Source: an archaeon (lineage in GTDB: Archaea > Thermoproteota > Nitrososphaeria > Nitrososphaerales > CADDZS01). Taken from it: 33,122 nt of DNA. The DNA lies in NCBI GenBank assembly GCA_029850555.1, contig JARCRS010000099.1:1-33122 (forward strand). The letters run 5' to 3'. Position 1 is the stretch's first letter; every line of letters starts with the position of its first letter. Made by a program: the position numbers and the translations under genes. The notes below the pieces were generated by a model. That model saw only the letters and a program-made list of their open reading frames with translations. It was not told where the DNA came from and did not search any database. Shown here piece after piece: positions 3,767 through 32,126 of the stretch.

Positions 3767-4465
3767 ATGCGTCTTGAACAAGCGAAACGAGATTACTACA
3801 GGCGGCGGGCAAAAGAAGAAGGCTACAGGAGCAGAGCCGCTTTCAAGCTGAAGCAGATGAACAACAAGTACCATCTTATGAGGCGTGGTTCCAAAGTCAT
3901 CGATATTGGTTCTGCCCCCGGTGGATGGGCTCAAGTGAGCTCTGAACTCGTCGGAAACGTTGGACAGGTTATTGGGGTAGATCTTGAACCCGTAGAGCCT
4001 GTCTCAAAGAACACAACTTTACTTCAGGAAGACATCCTGTCTCCTTCGGTATCGGAGAGCATCTTGAATGCGCTCCGCGGCGAGAAAGCTGATCTAGTTC
4101 TGGCTGATCTTTCGCCAAAACTCTCGGGGGTATGGGACATGGATCACTACAAACAGATTGACCTTTGTAATTCAGTCATAGACATACTTCCCTCAATTTT
4201 GGATAAACAAGGTTCTTGCCTGATGAAGGCTTTCCAGGGCGATGAGTTTCAAAACCTACTCAAGCGAATGAAAGAGAGTTTTGATCGCGTAGAGATTTCA
4301 AAACCAAATGCGAGTAGAAAAGAGAGTAGCGAGGTCTACCTTGTAGGTTTGAATTTCACCGGGCAAGTTCCAAAACGGCTTTCTGAAGAACTTCCATCTT
4401 TGCATCCGTCCGAAGAGCATTTGGATTCAAGTGTGTCCGACTGGCAAGAAAGCCTAGGGACTTGA
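3767..4465 (+). CDS. rlmE: 23S rRNA (uridine-2'-O-)-methyltransferase, RlmE/FtsJ family
   Basis: A SAM-dependent RNA 2'-O-methyltransferase acting on the large-subunit A-loop region. The SAM motif is DIGSAPGGW (about residues 46-54). The KDKE tetrad is visible: Lys27 (RAAFKL), Asp114 (LADLSPK), Lys154 (CLMKAF) and Glu189 (SSEVYLV). ATG at 3767 was chosen because GTGGAG precedes it and the protein then begins RLEQAKRDYYRRRAKEEGY, as usual for FtsJ; an in-frame TTG at 3731 is the alternative. The domain normally ends just after the EVYLVGLNFTG strand. Here about 35 further residues run antisense into trm1, a 110-bp convergent overlap. Confidence 0.93.
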   Translation: MRLEQAKRDYYRRRAKEEGYRSRAAFKLKQMNNKYHLMRRGSKVIDIGSAPGGWAQVSSELVGNVGQVIGVDLEPVEPVSKNTTLLQEDILSPSVSESILNALRGEKADLVLADLSPKLSGVWDMDHYKQIDLCNSVIDILPSILDKQGSCLMKAFQGDEFQNLLKRMKESFDRVEISKPNASRKESSEVYLVGLNFTGQVPKRLSEELPSLHPSEEHLDSSVSDWQESLGT

Positions 4466-5576
4466 GTTTCTCCAAGACTGCAGTAATTTTCGGCATTGAT
4501 GTTCCTTTTTTCAAGTGAATAGAAGTTAGGTCATAATAGAGCGGGAGGTCAAGTTCTTCGGCAAAAAGAGATTCTTTTGAGATTTCTCTGCATCTAGAAA
4601 GAAACTCGGGTGATTGGATGCGTCCGATCCAGAGAGGCCCTCCTATCCCCAGGCGACCTCCTTTTTCAGGACTCCCTTTACCACAATTAGGACAAATTAA
4701 AGGTAGTGAACCGGGCTGCATATCGTCAGAATAGTTCCTTTTGCCCATGCGGGAGTCTTGCCTTAACGAGAAAAATTGGTCCCTTGAAATAATCGAGCGA
4801 TAACCACATCCGAAGCAATGAAGAATGAATCCGATCTTCTTCTCGTTTTCTTTGGAATGGGAGTTTCCAACTTTGATTGATAGATAAACGCGAAAATAAT
4901 GCATGTCGTGGTGGCAAAATATGGGTTCGATTCCAGTTTCAAGTCTCATTGCCATCTGGGAAGCAAGTCCAAAGAGCAATCTCATGCCTACTTCGTGACA
5001 ATAGTCAGTTCGTAGCGAAAGGCCGAGATATTTTCTCAATGCAACTTTTGGATAGACGCCACAAAGGAGGGCGCTATCCGTCGCTGTGAGGGAAAGCATT
5101 CCTCCGTCCTTTACCGAGCGAAGGGCCGAGTCAATATAATCACTAGGAGTGCCAAAGGGATCTACATCGACAAAATCAAAGCGTTCGCCCTCGTTTTGTA
5201 TTCGCGACGTAAGAAATGAACACACCTCCGAATGCGAAAATACGCATTTGTCCTCTAGCTCGTTTAACTCTGCAGATTTCTTCGCAAATTCTAGGGCTCT
5301 TGAATTAATGTCGTTTAGAAATACTCTATCTACTAAAGTAACCTCATTAGCTACTCTAATTCCTCTTGCTCCTGTCCCCGCGAGTGAATCAGCGAAAGTC
5401 AAATCGGAGCCTTTTGCTCGTTTTTCGGAAGAGTAGGCGCTATAGCAGACAATAGAGATGTCTCGGACGAATTTGCCTCTGGGATTGAAAAAGGCAGGAA
5501 TCATTTTCGGCTCGTCTAGCGATGGAACCGCTAGAGCTGTCTTGCCTTCTTTGTAAAGTGTTGATGCGAATGACAT
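4356..5576 (-). CDS. trm1: tRNA (guanine26-N2)-dimethyltransferase Trm1
   Basis: Methylates G26 of tRNA using SAM. Visible features are EGKTALAVPS and FFNPRGKFVRDISI at the N-terminus, the Rossmann segment FADSLAGTGARGIRVA, the catalytic-type DVDPFGTPSDYIDS, two Cys pairs (HCFGCGYRS and ICPNCGKG) that probably bind zinc in the C-terminal domain, and the closing SRTHLNPNALRTDAKM typical of archaeal Trm1. About 406 residues from ATG at 5576; a GTG 18 bp upstream would add six. The last ~35 codons overlap rlmE on the other strand, and both ends look genuine because the THLNPNALRTDAK motif falls inside the overlap. Confidence 0.93.
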   Translation of the reverse strand: MSFASTLYKEGKTALAVPSLDEPKMIPAFFNPRGKFVRDISIVCYSAYSSEKRAKGSDLTFADSLAGTGARGIRVANEVTLVDRVFLNDINSRALEFAKKSAELNELEDKCVFSHSEVCSFLTSRIQNEGERFDFVDVDPFGTPSDYIDSALRSVKDGGMLSLTATDSALLCGVYPKVALRKYLGLSLRTDYCHEVGMRLLFGLASQMAMRLETGIEPIFCHHDMHYFRVYLSIKVGNSHSKENEKKIGFILHCFGCGYRSIISRDQFFSLRQDSRMGKRNYSDDMQPGSLPLICPNCGKGSPEKGGRLGIGGPLWIGRIQSPEFLSRCREISKESLFAEELDLPLYYDLTSIHLKKGTSMPKITAVLEKLKSLGFLASRTHLNPNALRTDAKMEVLQKAVLELAR

Positions 5577-5669
5577 TGCTCTATCTTTGAACACTCTTAA
5601 ATTGGCAAAGTACTCAATACTTCACACTTTTCCCGTTCCTCAATCGCACATGGAGCAACTAGAAAGAAA

Positions 5670-6275
5670 TTGTCAGTCGAAGCACCAAATCCAAAAAGTA
5701 GCACAAGGATATGGCTCATAACCGGAGATCCTGGCAGCGGGAAAACTACAGTAATCTCAAAGGTCATTCTCAGGGCAAAGACTCATGGTTTCACTGTTGG
5801 CGGCGTTCTCACGAGAGAGGTCAGAAACCATGGCGAAAGGACGGGCTTTCTGCTATTGGACATTGCTTCAGAAGAGTCTTCGAGCCTAGCAAGCACTGAA
5901 CGCATGCCAGGGCCTAGAGTCGGAAAATATCGTGTCAATTTGAAAACACTCGCGACGCTTGCCCAAAAGGCATTGGAGCATGCAAAGGCAAGCTCTGATA
6001 TCGTTGTCTGCGATGAGGTCGGACCGATGGAGCTCTTCAGTCCCGAGTTTAGACGCGGCGTGGGCGAAGCGGTTCTAAAGTCAGGCAAGCCCTGCCTTTG
6101 CGTTGTACATAAGAGACTTGCCGATCCCTTGATAGAAGAATTGAAGAATAATCAGGAATCGAAACTTTACGAAGTAACCTTCGAAAATAGAGATAATCTT
6201 CCGGATGAAATTTGGATGGAAATGCTCGAATACTTGAGAAAAAATGCCGAGAAACAAGGAAAGAGTGAGATCTAG
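5670..6275 (+). CDS. THEP1-type nucleoside-triphosphatase
   Basis: A 201-residue P-loop NTPase of the THEP1/NTPase_1 family, which hydrolyses ATP, GTP and other NTPs. Its physiological role is poorly known. The Walker A motif is GDPGSGKTT (about 19-27), followed by GGVLTREVR. VVCDEVGPMEL is the Walker B region, with the family-typical EVGPMEL, and CVVHKR lies further on. The start is TTG; an ATG at 5650 is out of frame and soon terminated. The gene sits 5 bp before rnhB in the same direction, so the two are probably co-transcribed. Confidence 0.88.
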   Translation: MSVEAPNPKSSTRIWLITGDPGSGKTTVISKVILRAKTHGFTVGGVLTREVRNHGERTGFLLLDIASEESSSLASTERMPGPRVGKYRVNLKTLATLAQKALEHAKASSDIVVCDEVGPMELFSPEFRRGVGEAVLKSGKPCLCVVHKRLADPLIEELKNNQESKLYEVTFENRDNLPDEIWMEMLEYLRKNAEKQGKSEI

Positions 6276-6280
6276 GATAC

Positions 6281-7012
6281 TTGATAGTTGCGGGAGTGGA
6301 TGAAGCAGGAAGAGGCTCGGTCCTCGGTCCTCTCGTGGTCGCGGGAGTCGCTATCGAAGAAAGAGACATTCCAAAACTAAAGGCACTTGGAGTAAAAGAT
6401 TCGAAGCTTCTACTGCCCCCTAAACGTAGGAAACTAGTGCGAGACATAAAGAAACTCGCCGTTCAAATTGCATGGGAGAAAATAGAACCCCGAAGAATTG
6501 ACGCAGTTGTAACCCAGGGGTTTAGGCTATTTCGCCTAAATTATCTTGAAGCTCAATATATGGCGCGTGTCCTAGAGAGATTGAAATTTGACCTTGCGTA
6601 CGTTGACTGCTGTGACACCATTCAAAAAAGGTACGGTAATCTCGTGGCAGACTTGTTGTTTGAGAGAATAAAAGAGAAAACAAATGCAACTGTGGAGTTA
6701 GGCGAGACTAATAAGTACAGAAAGAAGATTGTGAGCGAGCACCACGCCGATGCAAATTATCCAGTCGTGTCTGCGGCCTCAATAGTTGCAAAAGTTAGGC
6801 GGGACGCATGCATTTCACTCCTTCACAGAAAGCACGGAATATTCGGAAGTGGGTATCCTTCTGATCCAGACACTAAAAAGTATCTCAGGGGGTTTGTTGA
6901 GAGAGCCGAGATTCTTCCATCAATAACTCGTCTCTCTTGGGTGACGATCAGAAATCTATACCAACCCGTCAACGGGCAAATAAAACCAATAAACGAATTT
7001 TCTAGAGATTAA
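6281..7012 (+). CDS. rnhB: Ribonuclease HII
   Basis: Removes RNA from RNA-DNA hybrids and excises single ribonucleotides from DNA. The carboxylates are all visible: Asp7 and Glu8 in VDEAGRG, Asp109 in AYVDCCD, and Asp157 in HHADANYPVVSAASIVAK. The GSGYPSDPDT segment is also typical. 243 residues, slightly longer than many archaeal homologues because of a C-terminal extension (QPVNGQIKPINEF). The TTG start has AGGAT just upstream and matches the expected N-terminus one residue before IVAGVDEAG. It ends one base before the stop of the convergent signal peptidase gene. Confidence 0.95.
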   Translation: MIVAGVDEAGRGSVLGPLVVAGVAIEERDIPKLKALGVKDSKLLLPPKRRKLVRDIKKLAVQIAWEKIEPRRIDAVVTQGFRLFRLNYLEAQYMARVLERLKFDLAYVDCCDTIQKRYGNLVADLLFERIKEKTNATVELGETNKYRKKIVSEHHADANYPVVSAASIVAKVRRDACISLLHRKHGIFGSGYPSDPDTKKYLRGFVERAEILPSITRLSWVTIRNLYQPVNGQIKPINEFSRD

Positions 7013-7013
7013 T

Positions 7014-7631
7014 CTATGCCGCGGGTCTAGTAGTGCTCTTTTCTGATTGCATTTTCTCCAGGTATACTTCACCGACTAGAGCCAAAAGAATGAAAGTAGC
7101 AATCGTGACATTGTACGGATACTGCGTCACGTAGCCTGCTATAGGGAACTGGAGCATGACCTGCCCTACATACATTGACTGATTTATGTCGCAGTCGATG
7201 ATTAGAATAGAGCCCGCGGGTCCACAAATCGAGTATTGGTTATTGTCCCCCTTTGTGGTGAGAATCCTCTGTCCTTCAGCATTTGTTGAGATATTGACGA
7301 TTCTATGAATCACAAAACACGGGATATTGGCGTCCGTGACCAAGGTTGGAGGGGCTCCGCTCTGACATGCCTCGGGGGAGAGAAGAGCTTCTAGCGGAGT
7401 AAAAACGATGACATCGCCGACTTGGAGCTTATCAAAGGGTGTCTTCGCTATCATCTCGATCGAGCCGGATAGAATCGTTGGCTGCATGCTCGGCCCAGAT
7501 ACAATCGTAAACGGCTCCGATTCATTTGTAATCACTATTACTGAAGCATACGCGAGGAGTATAATCGCGATCGGGACGAGGTAAATGAGGTAGGAAAGAT
7601 ACTTTCTACTTTTCTTCGGATAGCTTGTCAA
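7014..7631 (-). CDS. Signal peptidase I, archaeal/ER type
   Basis: A membrane-bound peptidase that cleaves signal peptides from exported proteins. An N-terminal membrane helix covers about residues 12-34. The nucleophile Ser48 lies in SGPSMQPT, His109 in FVIHRI and Asp129 in TKGDNN, the Ser-His-Asp arrangement of archaeal and eukaryotic enzymes rather than the bacterial Ser-Lys. A second membrane helix lies near the C-terminus (about 172-190). The TTG start overlaps the fibrillarin stop as TTGA, suggesting translational coupling to the nop5-flpA genes upstream. The functional reason for that pairing is not obvious. Confidence 0.9.
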   Translation of the reverse strand: MTSYPKKSRKYLSYLIYLVPIAIILLAYASVIVITNESEPFTIVSGPSMQPTILSGSIEMIAKTPFDKLQVGDVIVFTPLEALLSPEACQSGAPPTLVTDANIPCFVIHRIVNISTNAEGQRILTTKGDNNQYSICGPAGSILIIDCDINQSMYVGQVMLQFPIAGYVTQYPYNVTIATFILLALVGEVYLEKMQSEKSTTRPAA

Positions 7632-8371
7632 CTAAATTTTTCCCTTGACTGCGAAATAATCATTGCATGGTTTCTGTCGTAAGGCTCGAGATCTATCTTT
7701 TGAAGTACTTCAAAACCTGACTTTTTTAAGATCTTGGTCTGGTCGTCAAAGACTTTTGCCTTATCTTTGAGAGCATCAATGCTACTTGCTTTGACTACCA
7801 AAAACAAAACCTCGCCTTTCGTAGAGAAGAATCTTTCGCAGTTTGCAATAGCGATTTCCGTCTGATCTGGCTGGGCGATGTCACAGTATATCACGCTTAT
7901 TTCCCCATAAATCGAAGTAAATTTTTCTGGATGCCTCGCATCGGCAATGATTGGAACAATGTTCTTTCGAAATCGAGCTACATTTTCCAATAGTTCTCTT
8001 GCAACTCGAGGTGCCATTTCAACAGCAAATATTCTGCCAGTATCTCCTACGATATCGGAGAGATGAGAAACAGTGGTTCCTGTAGAAGCTCCAAGATAAA
8101 GACAAACAGTTCCTTCACTAAAAGGCATAATGTTGAGTCCCCTGAGAATCGAGGCAGATAGTTTGCTTCTGAAAGGATCCCAGAAACGAAACTCGAGCGT
8201 TTCTCCGTCAGTTTTTACCCTTGTTGTTCTCTCGCCGTAATACACTTTTCCAGGAGTCAGATTCCTAGTCGCAAGCAGTTTTTTGCTTGGGTTCTTCGGA
8301 TCGAAAAGAGAGTAAACGCCTGGAAAAATTTCTGCTACTTTGGAACTTGACAGGTCATCTGTCTGATTCAT
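7628..8371 (-). CDS. flpA: Fibrillarin, C/D RNP 2'-O-methyltransferase
   Basis: The methyltransferase of box C/D guide RNPs, acting on rRNA and tRNA. 247 residues: an N-terminal subdomain (EIFPGVYSLF... LATRNLTPGKVYYGE; RFWDPFRSKLSASILRGL), the SAM loop YLGASTGTTVSHLSDIVG (about 92-109), the acidic strand IFAVEMAPR, and IYCDIAQPDQTEIAIAN. The ATG overlaps the nop5 stop as ATGA, the classic archaeal nop5-fibrillarin operon in which both products assemble on the same RNP with L7Ae. Confidence 0.96.
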   Translation of the reverse strand: MNQTDDLSSSKVAEIFPGVYSLFDPKNPSKKLLATRNLTPGKVYYGERTTRVKTDGETLEFRFWDPFRSKLSASILRGLNIMPFSEGTVCLYLGASTGTTVSHLSDIVGDTGRIFAVEMAPRVARELLENVARFRKNIVPIIADARHPEKFTSIYGEISVIYCDIAQPDQTEIAIANCERFFSTKGEVLFLVVKASSIDALKDKAKVFDDQTKILKKSGFEVLQKIDLEPYDRNHAMIISQSREKFS

Positions 8372-9660
8372 CGGTTCTTCCTCTGGAACCTTTCTTGCCT
8401 TTTCCCTCGAGCTTTATCCTTGCGTCTATATGGTTGCGCTTTGCCACGGGGTCGTTCGCGAGGCCTTTCAAATTCGGGTCTTTCCTCCCTAAATCTTTGC
8501 GGCTCATATTGCGGCCTCTCTTTCGGAGGCTCTTTGTATTTCACCTTGATCTCGCTCAAACGAGAGGCGAGTGATTTTTCGACTGAAGGTTCGCGGGTCC
8601 CTCGATATTGATCTATCCTTGCGGCGATCGCGATTTTTCCAGCTATGGATCTTGCTATTTTTCCCCTTTGCCACTTGGGAGCGCTATGCACAGCTGCATG
8701 TTGGAACAGTATCCCATGCTTTGGCGGACGAGACCCGCTCTTTAATGCGCGATATAGTGCCTTCTCGGCCCCAAGTATCTGTATAGTGCTTGCCGGAAGA
8801 ATAGCAAGTTTTTCGAGACCTCCAGCTCTTGCGATCAATCGCGCGCCAATTGAGGCACCAGCTAGCTCGCTCACATTGGGGGCAACTTCTCTCATCGTCC
8901 TCTCCACATGATTTGCTAGTTTATCTCGCAAAGAGAACAAATGCTGAGCCTCTTCCGCAAGCTGAATGATTCTAGCGAGATCTTCTTCCCTGATATCGGC
9001 TCCTCTTGATTCCTTTGAAGCTAGAGCGATTGCTCTGCTCTTGTTTTTGGAGTATCCCATTTGCTCGAGTTCATTTTCATCATAATTTAGACGAGACTTG
9101 AAACTCAAGATCAGTTTGATTAATGAAGTGTTATCGTCAATCATTGAGATAAGTTCAGGAAAATGCAACCCATACCACTCTCTTACTCTCGAGCTCATCA
9201 TATTAGCTGCCTTGTCGATTTCATCCAATGCCTGTACAGATTCCATCGCCTGAAGGTCAGGTTTTGCAGAGAGTTCCTTGATTCGAATGTTCGAGATTTC
9301 CATTGACGCACTACGAATTGCTTCCTGGGCAACTTCCGGAGATGAAGCGAGTCCCGAAGAGACCATCAGATCGATTTTCTTCTTTGAAAATTCCCGTAGA
9401 TCATCTTCAGTGATAGCTTCCGATTTTACTTCTCCGGCCGAGAGAGAATGTAAAAGCTGGGATTCGGAGAAAATTAAATCATCGGGAGTCAGCTTGGACT
9501 TTAGCCAGGAAATTTCTTGTTCAGACAATTCTCCAGAAGAGCTTCTTAGAAAGTGCTTTGTTCTTTCTTCTGAGGGAAACTCTAAATGGGAAATTATATT
9601 TTCTTTTTTATCGTCAATGAGTAAGAGACCGAGCTCACTTACAATAACAAAATAACGCAA
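8368..9660 (-). CDS. nop5: Nop5 (Nop56/58-like) C/D RNP scaffold protein
   Basis: The scaffold linking fibrillarin to the L7Ae-bound C/D RNA. 430 residues. The N-terminal fibrillarin-binding domain is followed by a long coiled-coil region and then the Nop domain, with VSELAGASIGARLIARAGG, LPASTIQILGAEKALYRAL and the signature PPKHGILFQHAAVHSAPK at about 320-337. The tail is strongly basic (RPRGKAQPYRRKDKARGKR). The TTG start gives RYFVIVSELGLLLID, the expected first strand. First gene of the nop5-flpA-signal peptidase unit. Confidence 0.95.
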   Translation of the reverse strand: MRYFVIVSELGLLLIDDKKENIISHLEFPSEERTKHFLRSSSGELSEQEISWLKSKLTPDDLIFSESQLLHSLSAGEVKSEAITEDDLREFSKKKIDLMVSSGLASSPEVAQEAIRSASMEISNIRIKELSAKPDLQAMESVQALDEIDKAANMMSSRVREWYGLHFPELISMIDDNTSLIKLILSFKSRLNYDENELEQMGYSKNKSRAIALASKESRGADIREEDLARIIQLAEEAQHLFSLRDKLANHVERTMREVAPNVSELAGASIGARLIARAGGLEKLAILPASTIQILGAEKALYRALKSGSRPPKHGILFQHAAVHSAPKWQRGKIARSIAGKIAIAARIDQYRGTREPSVEKSLASRLSEIKVKYKEPPKERPQYEPQRFREERPEFERPRERPRGKAQPYRRKDKARGKRQERFQRKNR

Positions 9661-9756
9661 ATTGATTATCGCCCCAGATTCCGTAGATGAAAGGTTTAAA
9701 CCGCTATCTTAAGTCGTTTGGTCAAAATCTGCAATTTAGCTTAAGAGGCGCAATCG

Positions 9757-10734
9757 ATGGCAGGAAAAGCTATCAGAAAGAGACAGAAAGAAACCTCGAA
9801 TGATCAAGAAAATCTTTCGACGCTTTCTTTCCTTGAAACTGAATTATGCGGATTCAAGATCCATTCCCCTACGATGCTGGCATCCGGTGTCCTAGGGATA
9901 TCATTTGACCTCTTCCCACGAATAATAGAGAGCGGATGCGGGGTGATCGTCTCAAAATCGATCGGCCTTGAGCCAAGAGAAGGTTATGGGAATCCAACCA
10001 TGACAGGGGTAGAAGCTGGCTATCTCAACGCAATAGGTCTTGCGAATCCTGGATCTGAAGAATTCGCGCGAGAGCTAGAAGAGGAGTTTTCGAAGAAACC
10101 AGTTCCACTGATCGTAAGTATCTTCGCTGATTCCGCCGAGCACTTTGCCGATCTTGTAAAGAGGTTTGATCGTTTTAATTTTCTAGCTTACGAACTCAAT
10201 CTCTCATGCCCTCATGTAAAGGATGTTGGCTCTGAAATTGGTTCAGAGCCTGCCGATGCGGCAGAAGTTGTGAAAGTGAGTCGTTCAGCTACCGGAAAGC
10301 CAATATTTGCAAAGATGCCTGCCACAATAATCAATGTTCCAGAGTGGGCAAAGGCCGTAGAATCCGCTGGAGCTGACGCAATAGTCGCCATTAACACAAT
10401 TCGAGCTATGAAAATTGACCTCGAAAGCAAAAAACCCGTTCTCTCAAATAAAATAGGAGGGCTGTCTGGACCTGCAATAAAACCTGTGGCAGTAAGATCA
10501 GTGTACGAAATTTATGAAACTGTGAAGATACCAATAGTGGGAGTGGGCGGAATAGTAAGCGGTGAAGATGCCGTCGAATTCTTTCTTGCGGGAGCAAGTG
10601 CGGTCGAGATTGGTAGTGCAATTGGTCAGGATTATTTGGATTCATTTGAAAGGGTGAATACCGGAGTAATGAAGTACCTCAAAAGAAACTCGTATTCCAA
10701 CGTGAAGGAGATCGTGGGTCTTGCGCACTATTGA
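9757..10734 (+). CDS. pyrD: Dihydroorotate dehydrogenase, catalytic subunit (class 1B)
   Basis: An FMN enzyme oxidising dihydroorotate to orotate in pyrimidine synthesis. It has the expected TIM-barrel motifs: LASGVLGIS near the N-terminus, YELNLSCPHVK with the class 1 catalytic Cys, AKMPA, AINTIRAMKIDL, NKIGGLSGPAIKPVAVR, and the phosphate-binding VGVGGIVSGEDAVEFFLAGASAVEIGSA. The first ~28 residues (GKAIRKRQKETSNDQENLS) are a polar extension absent from most homologues. ATG follows an AGAGG stretch. The pyrK start lies inside the last codons, so the two form a coupled operon as in NAD-dependent class 1B enzymes. Confidence 0.95.
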   Translation: MAGKAIRKRQKETSNDQENLSTLSFLETELCGFKIHSPTMLASGVLGISFDLFPRIIESGCGVIVSKSIGLEPREGYGNPTMTGVEAGYLNAIGLANPGSEEFARELEEEFSKKPVPLIVSIFADSAEHFADLVKRFDRFNFLAYELNLSCPHVKDVGSEIGSEPADAAEVVKVSRSATGKPIFAKMPATIINVPEWAKAVESAGADAIVAINTIRAMKIDLESKKPVLSNKIGGLSGPAIKPVAVRSVYEIYETVKIPIVGVGGIVSGEDAVEFFLAGASAVEIGSAIGQDYLDSFERVNTGVMKYLKRNSYSNVKEIVGLAHY

Positions 10735-11548
10735 TGTTATTCGAGATACCAAGATTGATTCAATCATTCAGGAGTCTTCGAACATTCGAAGTTTCTTTTT
10801 CAAAGATGAACCGAGTCTGAAAGCTAGTCCGGGGCAGTTTGTTATGGTCTGGTTACCCGGAGCCGGCGAATTTCCTATGAGCCTTTCGCTTCCGTCAAAA
10901 AGAGGACTAGCAAGCATCGGTGTCAAGGCGATGGGCACAGGTTCCAAAGCGCTGTACGAGTCAAAGGTCGGTGATTTCATAGGAATAAGAGGACCATACG
11001 GTACTTCCTTCGAGCTTGGATCGAATAAAGGCAAACCTATGCGAAGAGTTCTGCTAGTTGGAGGAGGCACCGGAATGGTTCCAATGATTGTCCTCGCAAA
11101 AGCTCTTTCCAAAATTTCAATCAGTACAACACTAGTTGTTGGAGCAAGAACGAAAGAGGAACTTCCATATCTAGGCATTTCGAAAAAAATCATCGGAGCA
11201 AAAAATGTGTTTGCGACTACAGATGACGGTACCTATGGCTTCAAGGGACTCGCACATGAGCAGGTCCAAAAGCTAGTAGCAAAGTACGGATTCGACGAAA
11301 TATTCTCATGCGGTCCGGAGAAAATGATGGCTCAGGTTTTCGGCATAGCAAAGGAAAACCAGATTCCAGTGCAATTCAGCTTGGAACGGATTATGAAATG
11401 TGGGATCGGCATATGTGGAAGCTGCACTATTGGACCAATGGTGCTTTGTAAAGAAGGCGCAATTCTAAACGAAAAAGACTTGGACACTCTAAGGTCTGAG
11501 TTTGGGCTATTTCATAGAGACAAGGCTGGAACACTACGCCCAATTTGA
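10721..11548 (+). CDS. pyrK: Dihydroorotate dehydrogenase electron-transfer subunit
   Basis: The FAD and [2Fe-2S] partner of PyrD that passes electrons to NAD. 275 residues: a ferredoxin-reductase-like FAD domain (PGQFVMVWLPGAGEFPMSLS), an NAD-binding segment (LLVGGGTGMVPMIVLAKAL), the FSCGPEKMM motif, and the C-terminal cluster ligands Cys227, Cys232, Cys235 and Cys243 in KCGIGICGSC...VLC. The TTG start overlaps the end of pyrD by 14 bp. Confidence 0.93.
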   Translation: MRTIDVIRDTKIDSIIQESSNIRSFFFKDEPSLKASPGQFVMVWLPGAGEFPMSLSLPSKRGLASIGVKAMGTGSKALYESKVGDFIGIRGPYGTSFELGSNKGKPMRRVLLVGGGTGMVPMIVLAKALSKISISTTLVVGARTKEELPYLGISKKIIGAKNVFATTDDGTYGFKGLAHEQVQKLVAKYGFDEIFSCGPEKMMAQVFGIAKENQIPVQFSLERIMKCGIGICGSCTIGPMVLCKEGAILNEKDLDTLRSEFGLFHRDKAGTLRPI

Positions 11549-11625
11549 TATCGCAATTTTTTTCGCAAGAAGGCTTAAAGCGTAGAAAATACAGATACCT
11601 GTAAGTGAAGAGGTAGAAAGTTCAC

Positions 11626-11793
11626 CTGCCGACCCATGGATCCTTAACTAAGGCTGGAAAAGTAAGATCTCAGACTCCGAAGCTGCAAGGTCGAGTTCGA
11701 ACTGGTCAGATTCCGAAATTTAGGAACAGACGGACATTTATCAAAAGATACGAACTCAAACGAAAGCCTGGGCAAAACTGGATTAACGTCTAA
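11626..11793 (+). CDS. rps30e: Ribosomal protein eS30, apparent CTG start
   Basis: A 55-residue, very basic small-subunit ribosomal protein. The frame reads PTHGSLTKAGKVRSQTPK, then GRVRTGQIPKFRNRR, and ends KRKPGQNWINV before TAA. PTHGSLTKAGKVR is the conserved N-terminus of archaeal eS30, normally preceded directly by the initiator Met. Here the codon before Pro is CTG. The frame is closed by TAG 21 bp upstream and contains no ATG, GTG or TTG in that interval. A GAGGT ribosome-binding sequence ends 11 bp before the CTG. A T-rich run follows about 20 bp after the stop. Identity is certain; the start is inferred. Confidence 0.9.
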   Translation: MPTHGSLTKAGKVRSQTPKLQGRVRTGQIPKFRNRRTFIKRYELKRKPGQNWINV

Positions 11794-11887
11794 GTCAATT
11801 CTTCAATAACGTAATTTTTTCGCTTGATTAGCTCTGCTTAGAGCAATATATGATCGCAAAGAAAGGCTTACTTTTTAGCGAAGGTCT

Positions 11888-12298
11888 CTACTTTTTCAGA
11901 GATCGTTTTGATCTGAACATTAGATAGACATAGCCAAACAGTCCTGCACTGAACGCTAATAGTGCTCCTCCGATCGAAATGGAGGATAGACTTACGATTG
12001 CTGAGAAAAGCGTCAAGACCCCGACCAAGAGTATTAACGATGCATGAAACGTGGACGCAATTGCAAACTCTCCTTTCAAAGTGATCTTGTAAGAATTCTG
12101 GTTGCCTGATTTGTTTGACCGTTTTGCTAGGCCGAGTGAAACAAGCTCATGGATCTTTTGCTCGGCGTCGCGTGCGTCAGTAGCTCCGTATTTTGCGATC
12201 TGCTCAAGCGTTGTGTATCCAATATGCCTTGATAGGTAGTGCAGCATGCTATGTTTGACATGCCCTGAAGACTCTACCACAACACCCGTTGAAGACAT
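11888..12298 (-). CDS. Winged-helix protein with two C-terminal membrane helices
   Basis: A 136-residue protein. Residues about 12-75 look like a winged helix (HSMLHYLSRHIGYTTLEQIAKYG... KIHELVSLGLAKR... YKITLKGEFAIAS). Two hydrophobic segments follow, at about 84-105 and 108-127, separated by a short turn, with a basic end (RSKRSLKK). The topology suggests a membrane-tethered DNA-binding regulator with its N-terminus in the cytoplasm. I do not recognise a named family or a signal. It diverges from the citrate synthase gene. Confidence 0.65.
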   Translation of the reverse strand: MSSTGVVVESSGHVKHSMLHYLSRHIGYTTLEQIAKYGATDARDAEQKIHELVSLGLAKRSNKSGNQNSYKITLKGEFAIASTFHASLILLVGVLTLFSAIVSLSSISIGGALLAFSAGLFGYVYLMFRSKRSLKK

Positions 12299-12443
12299 GA
12301 TCTCGAATCCCCGATCTTTGGGCTCATAAGTTCGATGGATTCGTGCTCCAGTTTCGCGGCCCGAGTGAGAAGGGTTGCATAGCTAGACAATTCATTTATT
12401 GTTCGCCTTGCCCTTTAACCCTTGTCTGGAAGCTCGAAGTATA

Positions 12444-13598
12444 ATGAGTCAATCAAGCGAAGATCTCGCGAGTCCTTGGAACCCTGTTCCTAAAGGTCTC
12501 GAAGGAGTTATAGTCGCAAATACGATGATTTCAAAAATAGATGGAAAAAAGGGCAGGTTGATCTATCGCGGCTACGATATTCAAGATCTAGCAGGGAACG
12601 TTCCATTTGAGGCAGTCGCATTTCTTCTCTGGGTTGGTCATTTGCCAAATCCACTTGAGCTTGACACATTTAGGAAAAATCTTGCCGAGCACCGTCACAT
12701 TTCAAGCGATGTAAGGTCATTCTTAGAGGGAACTCCCCACGAAGCAGACCCGCTTGTTGTTTTACGCACTGCAGTCTCTACTATGGGACTGAGGCCGACA
12801 AAAAAAGACTCTATCCTCGAAGATGGGTTGAATTTAGCTTCGCAATTTCCGATAATACTTTCCTACTTTCAACACATGAGAAATGACGAAGAAATAATAG
12901 AACCAAGAAAAGATCTAGGGCACGCTTCAAATTACATTTACATGCTAACGGGAGAAGTTCCCAGTAAGGAGCATGAACATGCGCTAGATTCCTATCTGAC
13001 TTTACTCGCAGATCACGGAATGAATGCTTCGACATTTTCTGCGCGAGTCACCATTTCAACTTTGAGCGATATTTACTCTGCGATTGTTTCAGCTATAGGG
13101 ACACTCAAGGGTCCTTTGCATGGAGGCGCCCCTTCTAAGGTCTGGGAAATGCTCCAGGAAATTGGGCAAGCGGAAAACGTTACCCCCTGGCTTAAAGAGC
13201 GAATTGCGAACAAAGAAAGGATAATGGGTTTCGGCCATAGGATCTATAGAACTGAAGATCCTAGATCAAAGATATTGAAAAAGCTCGCAAAGGAAATTGC
13301 AAACCCGGATACATTTGCTCTTGCGTCCCTAGTAGAGTCGGAAGCAAGAAAACTGTTGCAAGAAGAGCATCCAGATCGCCCTCTGGACACTAATGTAGAA
13401 TTTTATTCGTCGCTTGTCTTGAATGCCGGGGGGATTCCTACAGACATGTTCACTGCGACTTTCGCTTGCGCTCGTTCGTTTGGATGGGTTGCTCACATCA
13501 TGGAGCAGCTAGCTGATAATAGAATATACAGACCCGATTCCGAATACGTCGGCCCCTTGGATCTTAGCGTTCCGAAAATGTATGATGCAAAGAAATAG
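12444..13598 (+). CDS. gltA: Citrate synthase
   Basis: Condenses oxaloacetate and acetyl-CoA. 384 residues, the short archaeal/Gram-positive type. Conserved features are GRLIYRGYDIQDLA near the N-terminus, His226 in GPLHGGAP, His265 in GFGHRIYRTEDPR, and the C-terminal FACARSFGWVAHIMEQ. The usual third catalytic residue, Asp in the (N)VDFYSG-like strand, is Glu319 here (NVEFYSS). A 2-methylcitrate synthase role cannot be excluded. ATG at 12444 was chosen over an upstream TTG: a TATA-like CATTTATTG at 12393 would place transcription near 12420, inside the longer version. Confidence 0.93.
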   Translation: MSQSSEDLASPWNPVPKGLEGVIVANTMISKIDGKKGRLIYRGYDIQDLAGNVPFEAVAFLLWVGHLPNPLELDTFRKNLAEHRHISSDVRSFLEGTPHEADPLVVLRTAVSTMGLRPTKKDSILEDGLNLASQFPIILSYFQHMRNDEEIIEPRKDLGHASNYIYMLTGEVPSKEHEHALDSYLTLLADHGMNASTFSARVTISTLSDIYSAIVSAIGTLKGPLHGGAPSKVWEMLQEIGQAENVTPWLKERIANKERIMGFGHRIYRTEDPRSKILKKLAKEIANPDTFALASLVESEARKLLQEEHPDRPLDTNVEFYSSLVLNAGGIPTDMFTATFACARSFGWVAHIMEQLADNRIYRPDSEYVGPLDLSVPKMYDAKK

Positions 13599-13603
13599 TC
13601 TAA

Positions 13604-13960
13604 CTAACGTCGCTGCTGTGGATGAGGACTTTTTTGAGACTTTGGAGCAGTAGAGCTTTCGACTGCAGCTTTCCTTCCCCTGACAATAGAAAGAGACTTT
13701 GCAACCTCCAATAAAACAGCGCTCTTTTTCATTCCCTCTTTTTTCTCAACACTCACAATGCCGCTTTGCAGGGACATTCTCTTTGGATGTTTGGCGACTT
13801 CGGATTCGGGGTTGTATCCAAGAATCTTAGCTGCTTCGACCAGCTCGCCCAGTTTTGGATCTTTTACAGATCTATCAAGTGGAATTCGTCGTCCTTCCTC
13901 GCGAGTTATTGACGAGTTGAAGTAATCAAGCCAGAGGACATGCCGCTTGTATTCCTTCAA
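13604..13960 (-). CDS. srp19: Signal recognition particle 19 kDa protein
   Basis: SRP19 binds SRP RNA helices 6 and 8 and prepares it for SRP54. 118 residues. HVLWLDYFNSSITREEGRRIP matches the SRP19 N-terminal strand and the invariant Arg-rich GRRIP loop, and HPKRMSLQSGIVSVEKKEGMKKS is a typical second RNA-contact region. The C-terminus is a basic, Ser/Pro/Gln-rich tail. TTG start. It lies 46 bp downstream of rps8e in the same direction, a probable two-gene operon. Confidence 0.92.
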   Translation of the reverse strand: MKEYKRHVLWLDYFNSSITREEGRRIPLDRSVKDPKLGELVEAAKILGYNPESEVAKHPKRMSLQSGIVSVEKKEGMKKSAVLLEVAKSLSIVRGRKAAVESSTAPKSQKSPHPQQRR

Positions 13961-14006
13961 ACTTAGATCGCATCAGTAGAAAAAGAGATTTTCTGAAGTG
14001 GAAGAC

Positions 14007-14393
14007 TTACTGGGATGTCAGCACAGCGTTGATCACGCCGTCTTGGGCAGGTCTTGACGTCACTTTCGCGTTCCCTAGTTCAGTGTCAATGAGCGCCCCA
14101 CGTGTGATTACCCCTCTTCTTTCATAGTCTCTATTCGCTGGATTTCTTAAGACGCGAGTAATCTTGACTTTGGAAGTCTTGCCAGAGCTATTATCTTTCA
14201 CATTGGCAAATTCCGCGGAACGAAGTGAAGTCTTGATTGAACCCCCGCGCATCCGTCTTTTGTAATTCTCCGTTGCACCAAGCGTTGGCTCTGCGGCGTA
14301 TCCGTCTTTCTCAAAGGCTCTACGAGCTCTGTTGCTCTTTCTTGCGCCACCCGTAAGTTTTCTCTTTCTCAAATTTTCGATTGACTTTACCAT
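14007..14393 (-). CDS. rps8e: Ribosomal protein eS8
   Basis: 128 residues. Conserved eS8 segments include ENLRKRKLTGGARKSNRARRAFEKDGYAAEPTLG and MRGGSIKTSLRSAEFANV, then the C-terminal block VLRNPANRDYERRGVITRGALIDTELGNAKVTSRPAQDGVINAVL. ATG start. A TATA-like CATTTATTAG on the minus strand near 14455 would serve the rps8e-srp19 transcript. Confidence 0.96.
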   Translation of the reverse strand: MVKSIENLRKRKLTGGARKSNRARRAFEKDGYAAEPTLGATENYKRRMRGGSIKTSLRSAEFANVKDNSSGKTSKVKITRVLRNPANRDYERRGVITRGALIDTELGNAKVTSRPAQDGVINAVLTSQ

Positions 14394-30775: not shown

Positions 30776-30882
30776 AATCTACTTTACCACTTGCGATTAT
30801 GATATAATCCGAATCACAAAGTTTGAATAAGATGTGGATTCTTTCTTCCTATTACTACACCTTTAAGCAGTTTGCTGTCAAA

Positions 30883-30890
30883 AACTTATA
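30883..30890 (+). promoter_or_regulatory. TATA box of the histone gene
   Basis: AACTTATA, with A residues in the BRE position, predicts a transcription start near 30912-30915. That gives about 20 nt of leader containing GAGGT before the TTG at 30936, or a leaderless start at the TTG at 30915. Confidence 0.45.
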
Positions 30891-30935
30891 GATTGCCTAC
30901 GTTGTCGGTGTCCTTTGAGGTCGTTTATTTCTTTC

Positions 30936-31160
30936 TTGTCTGAGACAGAGTTTGGTCTTGCTGCGGTATATCGTATAATCAAGAAATCAGGTGCAGAGCG
31001 TGTTAGCGACGAGGCGGCCGAGGAGCTCCGCCGAGCAGTGGAAGATGTAGCGGCCCAGATAGCAAAACAAGCTATAGCGCTCGCAGATCATGCGGGCAGG
31101 CATACAGTGAAAGGAGCAGACATAAAACTCGCGGCAAAGACGATCTTAAGAACAGCTTAA
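30936..31160 (+). CDS. Archaeal histone
   Basis: A DNA-wrapping protein of 74 residues with a single histone fold. It reads SETEFGLAAVYRIIKKSGAERVS, then AAEELRRAVEDVAAQIAKQAIALADHAGRHTVKGADIKLAAKTIL. RHTVKGAD is the conserved loop-2 DNA contact (R-x-T-V-x-x-x-D). TTG at 30936 places the usual N-terminal Met directly before SETEF; another TTG at 30915 would add seven residues (RSFISF...). This N-terminus resembles thaumarchaeal histones and is one of the taxonomic cues. Confidence 0.93.
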   Translation: MSETEFGLAAVYRIIKKSGAERVSDEAAEELRRAVEDVAAQIAKQAIALADHAGRHTVKGADIKLAAKTILRTA

Positions 31161-31197
31161 TAAAATCCAAATAGACAAAAGGAACGAAAAAGTTGGA

Positions 31198-31383
31198 GCT
31201 CCGGTGGTGTAGTCCGGCCTTCGTCTCTTCAATGCGCGGATCTTACATCGGGCGTGCATCGAAAGGATCGACCGGAAAAGCATAGTGGCCTCTCGCCGTT
31301 CTGGCGAAATGGGAGAAATGTCTCTTTCAACTAAAAGAGGGACTTCATAGTCACTGACCCGGGTTCAAATCCCGGCCGGAGCA
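31198..31383 (+). tRNA. tRNA-Glu (probably CTC), two introns
   Basis: The acceptor GCTCCGG (31198-31204) pairs with CCGGAGC (31376-31382); discriminator A; no encoded CCA. The T-arm is CCGGG-TTCAAAT-CCCGG (31359-31375). The D-stem GTGT (31207) pairs with GCAT (31280). The anticodon stem GTGGC (31285) pairs with GTCAC (31350), with loop CT-CTC. Intron 1, in the D-loop, is 31220-31277: CCGG (31214) and CCGG (31272) make a four-pair helix with three-base bulges CCT and AAA, a bulge-helix-bulge that predicts exactly those cuts. Intron 2 is about 31296-31348 at position 37/38; its splice motif is less clear. Splicing gives a 75-nt tRNA of the archaeal Glu type. Confidence 0.88.
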
Positions 31384-31625
31384 CTGTTACCATGGTTCAA
31401 ATACCTGTATGCCCAAATGGGCAACGGAACACTTCCGTGGAACAGATTGAAGAAACTGTCTCGAGATTCTAAGAGTTTCTTGAGTGTCTGAGAACAAAGG
31501 CGACTAGGGTCAACTACTCTTGAGGAGTAAAGTACGTTTTAGGCGATCCCGACGCTTTTCTTTTGCTCGCAAAAACGCATAGGAAAAAGGCTGAAGAAAA
31601 GCTAACTGAATTTATTAAGAAATAA

Positions 31626-32126
31626 CGCGGAAGTGTTGCACCCTCTACTCTTGTGAATCCGTTTGAATTTATCAACCATGCATACATCATAGTTTCATGT
31701 AACGAGCTGCCTCCAATAAAGGAAGATGATCTCGGTGTATTCAACAGAATAAAGAGACGTCTTTTCAAAAATCGATTTGGAGGGAAGGATCGTCCAGACC
31801 GAGAATAAGAGAAGAAACTCTCGACGCCTGAAGAGATTTCTGCGATTTTGAATTGGGCTTTAGAGGGACTGAAGAGACTCGAGGCTCAAGGATGGAATTT
31901 TTCTCATGATGAAAAGGAGACAGAGATGAGAGAGTGGTACAAGCGCAAGAGCGACCCTCTATGGGGGTTCGTCGAAGATGAACTAACTGATGAAAGCGAA
32001 GGTGATGACGAAGAACCATTCACAATCAAAGAGGAGTGTTACAATGCCTTCAAAGAATACGCCAACGCTCCTTGCCTTAGTTCTTCATCTAAAATGATCC
32101 TCATATTCAGCAACATCGCTAGTTGA
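31626..32126 (+). pseudogene. Broken D5-like primase/helicase of a mobile element
   Basis: One frame reads NPFEFINHAYIIVSCNELPP, then GVFNRIKRRLFKNRFGGKDR, a stop at 31806, then STPEEISAILNWALEGLKRLEAQGW and IKEECYNAFKEYAN. This is the C-terminal part of phage/plasmid D5-type helicases: the (F)SCNELP strand, the Arg-finger region NRI.RR, and the EELSAILNWALEGL helix. The Walker A region is absent, and the frame is closed upstream at 31623. A further small open stretch (GVKYVLGDPDAFLLLAKTHR) lies at 31530-31625. Its place just downstream of a tRNA gene suggests the remnant of an element integrated there. Confidence 0.75.

Follow-up and report, generated by a model that had tools for sequence, protein, structure and literature searches.

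The window analyzed here, a 33,122-nucleotide stretch of DNA from an uncultured soil archaeon, carries a tRNA-Glu(CTC) gene of 186 nt on its forward strand (positions 31198 to 31383), starting after a gap of 37 nt downstream of the end of an archaeal histone gene. According to this neighboring histone, the closest named relatives are the metagenome-assembled genomes (MAGs) Nitrososphaerales archaeon JOPF010, JOPF014, and JOPF053, Thaumarchaeota archaeon SubAcS9-71, and "bacterium" clean1828, whose names suggest that the window belongs to the order Nitrososphaerales. The locus is organized as follows:

30915 to 31160, + strand: archaeal histone gene (Pfam CBFD_NFYB_HMF), which precedes tRNA-Glu(CTC) in relatives as well.
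31198 to 31219, + strand: exon 1, from the acceptor 5' strand to the D-loop (ending in CCGGCC), laid out as in the intronless genes L043 and L045.
31220 to 31277, + strand: D-loop intron of 58 nt between positions 20a and 20b (our own numbering), a position common to seven genes.
31278 to 31295, + strand: exon 2, comprising the D-stem 3' strand, the anticodon stem 5' strand, and CTCTCG (positions 32 to 37, anticodon CTC).
31296 to 31317, + strand: putative outer intron of 22 nt at 37/38, with the 3' end GGAGAA; counterparts occur alone in L165 to L169, L096, L203, and L190.
31318 to 31348, + strand: putative inner intron of 31 nt, located at the 3' splice site of the outer intron and containing a long intron stem.
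31349 to 31383, + strand: exon 3, comprising A38, the anticodon stem 3' strand, the variable loop, the T arm, the acceptor 3' strand, and A73.

The exons and the mature sequence are fixed because the intronless orthologues L043 and L045 of Nitrososphaerales, both 75 nt long, share the D-loop and anticodon-loop layout and the junctions of the window tRNA. In silico removal of the 58-nt D-loop intron and the 53-nt insert at 37/38 (31296 to 31348) left a standard 75-nt tRNA; i.e., excision of all three introns restores a standard Glu(CTC) matching these orthologues. CCA is absent from the gene-encoded 3' end. ARAGORN called the fully spliced sequence as a Glu(ctc) of 75 nt. With introns allowed, it returned a Glu(ctc) with a single 53-nt intron once the D-loop intron was removed and a spurious Leu for the unspliced gene. 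In the unprocessed window, ARAGORN called no tRNA at 31198 to 31383, and a search with Rfam at gathering thresholds likewise gave no match at these positions. The preliminary description, which had placed a tRNA-Glu of 186 instead of 75 nt at 31198 to 31383, was right in its coordinates, and ARAGORN agrees on Glu(ctc) after in silico splicing. It had also counted two introns; both the D-loop and the anticodon-loop inserts exist, but the latter reads as two, making probably three in total.

The D-loop intron is bounded by a bulge-helix-bulge (BHB) motif with a 4-bp central helix (CCGG/CCGG) and two 3-nt bulges, cut at CC^T and AA^A. This motif and its cuts had already been described as restoring a standard D-loop, in agreement with the intronless orthologues. 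Among the seven genes of the window family, the D-loop intron is 33 to 67 nt long and the BHB partner is CCGG in three, CTGG in two, and ACGG in two; the central helix has 4/4 pairs in five genes and 3/4 in the two with ACGG. Only one to three contiguous pairs were counted in the intron stem past the bulge in these genes. Judged from its sequence, we regard this intron as a BHB intron of the ordinary kind with a slightly relaxed motif. In L022 (genome G002), 29 nt from the start of the gene (22 belonging to the exon and 7 to the D-loop intron) are found twice, the copies being separated by a stretch of Ns and by histone 3' sequence, corresponding to either a scaffold artifact or a duplication.

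In an ordinary 37/38 intron, bases 32 to 35 pair with the four bases ending 2 nt before the 3' cut. Tested as one such BHB intron, the 53-nt insert of the window forms none of the four central pairs, as the preliminary description implied in seeing no canonical motif there, and the same direct pairing reached only 0 to 1 of 4 pairs in all 12 displaced-insert genes scored. As a control from the same genome, 12 tRNA hits with an intron were examined, 4 of which could be parsed as simple 37/38 introns, with 4, 4, 3, and 4 of 4 central pairs; the control is thin, with 4 of the 12 devoid of a T arm by the motif used and 4 doubtful at 1 to 2 of 4 direct pairs, the latter being possible cases of several introns or of class II tRNAs. 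One own-genome hit, L013 (G000:C37:3048-3165), has an intron that was not parsed as 37/38, and the interruption may lie in the anticodon stem. A group I or group II intron was also considered and rejected, given that Rfam returned no hit at the gathering threshold in the window and none of either kind at E<=5 in 30800 to 31800. A shifted 37/38 junction was likewise discarded, as the one-base shift checked by hand in family f13 does not pair.

The insert can be read as two introns, one lying in the splice site of the other. GGAG (31312 to 31315) pairs with CTTC (31343 to 31346) at 4/4 positions, with bulges AA^A and AT^A, and the inner intron stem starts 3 nt after GGAG and ends directly before CTTC. 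This inner BHB has no exon-side helix and represents a relaxed form only; relaxed BHB forms may be without an exon helix. In silico removal of the inner intron yields GGAGAA-A38-GTCAC, in which GGAG can pair with CTCT (32 to 35) at 4/4 positions. The resulting outer BHB is canonical by sequence: its bulges are CG^C and AA^A, and the exon helix is provided by the anticodon stem (5/5 pairs). At the sequence level, this reading places the inner intron between AA and A38 of the outer intron's 3' bulge. It would explain why no canonical motif is visible in the 53-nt insert, as the outer motif would arise only once the inner intron has been excised. The nested score of the window (4/4 + 4/4 + 8 stem pairs) was equaled by 1 of 20,000 insert shuffles, and those of the six other family genes by 1, 3, 76, 0, 35, and 27 of 20,000. 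Two hairpins had been noticed in the insert beforehand. Both are present in the window, and CTCTTT/AAAGAG falls within the conserved covarying stem, but TCGCC/GGCGA is not kept in the aligned relatives.

The window family (f1) comprises seven tRNA-Glu(CTC) genes from six of nine genomes (G000 to G008), found by a 3'-end pattern except for L055, which was found via the histone. No tRNA-Glu(CTC) was detected in G004, G006, or G008 by 3'-end and DNA-pattern scans; a covariance model gave only weak matches in G004 and G006 (best E about 1e-5), and G008 fell outside the sample of that model search. Two hits of the DNA-pattern scan, L170 and L171, were non-tRNA sequences and were dropped. The mature 75-nt sequence is identical in G000, G001, G002, G003, and G007 and differs at one position in the two genes of G005, and the introns vary freely across the family while the mature tRNA is nearly constant and the splice motifs are conserved. 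G005 is a single MAG with two divergent histone and tRNA-Glu(CTC) pairs (L054 and L055), both with the nested layout.

With the scan geometry fixed (GGAG to stem, 3 nt; stem to partner, 0 nt; partner to cut, 2 nt), the nested layout fits all seven genes, which are related and hence not independent. The outer helix has 4/4 pairs throughout; the inner helix has 4/4 in five genes and 3/4 in two, L020 and L055 having one mismatch each among the four central pairs. The insert ranges from 38 to 81 nt (outer part, 17 to 31 nt; inner part, 21 to 50 nt), and despite this variable length the first stem pair forms in register in 7/7 genes. Within the inner stem, 38 of 42 cells pair in register, compared to 7 to 30 of 40 to 42 at slides of 1 to 4. 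When the anticodon stem and the inner helix are included in the alignment, 94.6% of 111 cells pair, compared to 36 to 53% when slid by 1 to 3. The covariation score was equaled in 0/500 shuffles. Three pairs are changed on both sides (matched in 62/500 shuffles), in six cells (0/500), and further pair types were matched by the shuffle controls in 495/500. The window inner stem itself contains one G.G mismatch. Invariant intron columns of the alignment are located mostly at the two splice motifs. The inner central helix varies on one side only (GC/GU), and the GGAG/CTYN pairing is therefore not proven by compensatory change. When the two helices were scored alone and the stem was ignored, matching shuffles amounted to 2,301 of 20,000 for L020 and 1,533 for L055, which is weak, and to 127 to 258 for the other five genes. 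Overall, the comparison across family genes supports nesting, which had previously been raised only as a possibility of nested or sequential introns. In L025 (G003), whose insert is 81 nt long, the outer part contains an extra AGAG able to pair with CTCT, either a further layer or a chance match.

A GGRG-type intron was found alone at 37/38, with 4/4 direct pairs, in eight more distantly related genes (L165 to L169, L096, L203, and L190). Those of family f10, from five genomes (L165 to L169), carry a single intron of 15 to 16 nt ending in GGAGAC or GGGGAC, and L096 carries one of 11 nt ending in GGGGAA. L062 and L064 contain a different 15-nt intron with 3/4 pairs. The single introns in the tRNA-Glu(CTC) of relatives (L165 to L169, L096, and L203) resemble the putative outer intron of the window gene in their position, in GGRG followed by 2 nt and the cut before A38, and in the partner CTCT. 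In contrast to the window gene, they are 11 to 16 nt long and devoid of an inner intron, and their canonical motif is directly visible. We also searched 400 genomes of the class with a covariance model built from the nested half, and all 30 loci returned were parsed: 17 were intronless, 4 had a short single intron with 4/4 pairs, and 9 had a displaced insert (3 in f1, 5 in f13, and 1 in f5). The four single-intron loci were L203 in Glu-CTC and L185, L186, and L190 in Glu-TTC, L190 being the one among the latter with GGAG. The outer-type intron thus occurs alone in several families, including f20 and f21 outside Nitrososphaerales, and we infer that it corresponds to the older state. The position of introns in tRNA-Glu is otherwise very mobile, with inserts elsewhere in, e.g., L144, L145, L148, L151, L154, L118, L044, L032, and L034 to L036; other insert sites are the 5' part of the D-loop, the D-arm, and positions inside the anticodon TTC or next to it.

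In families f13 and f5, GGRG plus two nucleotides is followed by an extra 11 to 15 nt before A38. These extras could be read as short nested introns, a reading that is weak for f13 and mixed for f5. For f13 (L037, L038, L063, and L135), the helices alone were matched by chance in 1,048 to 1,608 of 20,000 shuffles and the full score in 4,185 to 14,328; for f5 (L047), the corresponding values were 47 and 3,953 of 20,000. Neither f13 nor f5 inserts contain an intron stem. Nesting in f13 at the same certainty as in the window family was dropped since shuffles often match the best full score. A midpoint-rooted CTP-synthase tree, built without G033 (a short fragment) and the second, short G005 fragment, grouped f1 together (100/100) but did not order the deep families; the inserts of f1, f13, and f5 may stem from one gain or from several.

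We considered whether the 53-nt insert could be a single intron with a 3' bulge expanded by a hairpin, in which GGAG would pair only with CTCT and the splicing endonuclease EndA would cut CG^C and AT^A in one round. The fold with the outer helix first is as stable as the inner BHB, and the single 53-nt intron reported by ARAGORN in the D-spliced gene would fit this arrangement. However, it leaves unexplained why a complement of GGAG (3 to 4 of 4 positions) follows the stem immediately and stops precisely 2 nt short of A38 in 7/7 genes, and the whole hairpin would need to fit a 3-nt bulge. We consequently regard a single intron as unlikely. It appears probable from the sequence comparisons that the locus is a functional tRNA-Glu(CUC) gene with three introns, which would be cut by EndA and joined by RtcB, the inner before the outer at 37/38. 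Expression and actual cutting are inferred, as are the order and the enzymes proposed below.

The D-loop intron would be removed through its own BHB. At 37/38, the inner intron would sit exactly at the 3' cut site of an older outer intron, and removal of the two would involve a switch of pairing partners. GGAG would initially pair with CTTC at the 3' end of the inner intron, allowing the latter to be cut out. The ensuing ligation would create GGAGAA-A38, whereupon GGAG would turn to CTCT in the anticodon loop; with the anticodon stem supporting this second helix, the outer intron would be cut. This order is proposed because the reverse leaves 0 to 1 of 4 central pairs, a dead end, and not on the basis of energy. 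For the D-spliced window precursor, the predicted folds are -47.8 kcal/mol with the inner BHB, -48.6 kcal/mol with the outer helix first, and -52.5 kcal/mol for the free optimum. In the intermediate formed after inner removal, the open outer BHB lies 4.0 to 6.1 kcal/mol above the optimum in the seven genes, and in three single-intron relatives the open BHB lies 4.3 to 8.2 kcal/mol above it; predicted folding neither picks the BHBs nor separates nested from single-intron genes. Removal of the two introns outer-first or in either order would be compatible with the similar predicted precursor energies of the outer and inner helices, but CTCT would then face CTTC or CTCN with 0 to 1 of 4 pairs in 7/7 genes and the product would be stuck, making this alternative very improbable.

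Two PF01974 genes, L048 and L049, are encoded as candidates for EndA. L048 shows the best resemblance to archaeal splicing endonucleases (2cv8 and 3p1z) and keeps an aligned histidine, presumably the catalytic His of EndA, that is missing in L049. By sequence, the pair fits an alpha2beta2 EndA made of a catalytic subunit and a noncatalytic paralogue. This EndA type is linked to noncanonical and multiple introns and to relaxed motifs in PMC4090602. RtcB was present in 5/5 genomes searched. In G003 (G003:C86:23829-26555), it was matched in two pieces about 1.4 kb apart within one open frame of 1,022 amino acids, a pattern suggestive of an inserted intein.

Immediately after the tRNA, positions 31386 to 32126 contain a broken frame with DNA-primase-like pieces (PHROG) and several stops, which is probably the remnant of an integrated element. 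On a second contig of the same assembly, G000:C71:1-132 (L023, L158) is identical to window positions 31252 to 31383, the 132-nt 3' part of the tRNA gene. The match stops precisely at the tRNA 3' end, and an integrase-like gene comes next (L158, 142 to 969; PHROG integrase, E of 8e-14; Pfam Phage_integrase just under the cut-off). These matches suggest that elements integrate at tRNA-Glu(CTC), as the assembly shows two alternative sequences downstream of it. That the tRNA gene is decaying or silent, as the adjoining broken frame might suggest, is hardly credible given a mature sequence nearly identical across the family, introns free to vary, and conserved splice motifs.

Archaeal tRNAs with up to three introns are mentioned in PMC4390854 and PMC3218864. 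According to PMC8450103, the two or three introns of some archaeal tRNAs are so closely spaced that the next BHB can form only when one of them has left. Multi-intron tRNAs are reported in Thermoproteales, e.g., P. calidifontis tRNA-Glu(UUC) (PMC4390854), and intron-rich tRNAs in Asgard archaea (PMC11291895). The window tRNA shares with such tRNAs its BHB or relaxed BHB motifs, the canonical 37/38 and D-loop positions, and the EndA and RtcB genes. The introns are described there at various tRNA positions, whereas in the window tRNA two appear to share one junction with no exon between them, one interrupting the splice motif of the other. No nested archaeal tRNA introns, either two at one junction or one in another's splice site, were found in the part of the literature searched; earlier descriptions, for instance in the classic surveys, may exist. 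The nearest arrangement is that of the fungal stwintrons (spliceosomal twin introns), in which an internal intron splits a splice element of the external one and excision is consecutive. Stwintrons use the spliceosome, while the window tRNA would depend on BHB splicing by protein enzymes. Moreover, almost all known stwintrons split the donor according to PMC12403724, whereas the inner intron of the window tRNA would split the 3' (acceptor) side. Judging from its placement, it appears to lie within the 3' splice site of a preexisting intron, in the manner of an acceptor-disrupted stwintron.

The 3' ends of the inner introns before A38 (CTTCAT, CTCCAG, CTCGAG, and CTCAAG) resemble the exon sequence CTCTCG before A38, and part of this likeness could be forced by GGAG pairing alone. 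As a matter of speculation, the inner intron may have originated by partial duplication or by re-insertion of an intron at the spliced junction. On a broader level, we tentatively suggest that BHB introns can form true twin introns, through gain of a second intron exactly at an existing spliced junction and a switch of the GGAG partner that enforces inner-then-outer removal. The displaced layout also present in families f13 and f5 would suggest that such introns are widespread in Nitrososphaerales and have gone unseen because tools call one canonical intron; this generalization is plausible but somewhat short of an even bet.

A "37/38 intron" without a BHB may consequently hide two introns, which calls for caution. 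The locus would exemplify, in compact form, how a protein endonuclease can splice in a fixed order, and its partner switch could be tested in vitro using two enzymes and one RNA. Together with the relatives carrying the outer intron alone, it would show the situation before and after an intron was gained at a splice junction already present, a comparison relevant to the origin of tRNA introns.
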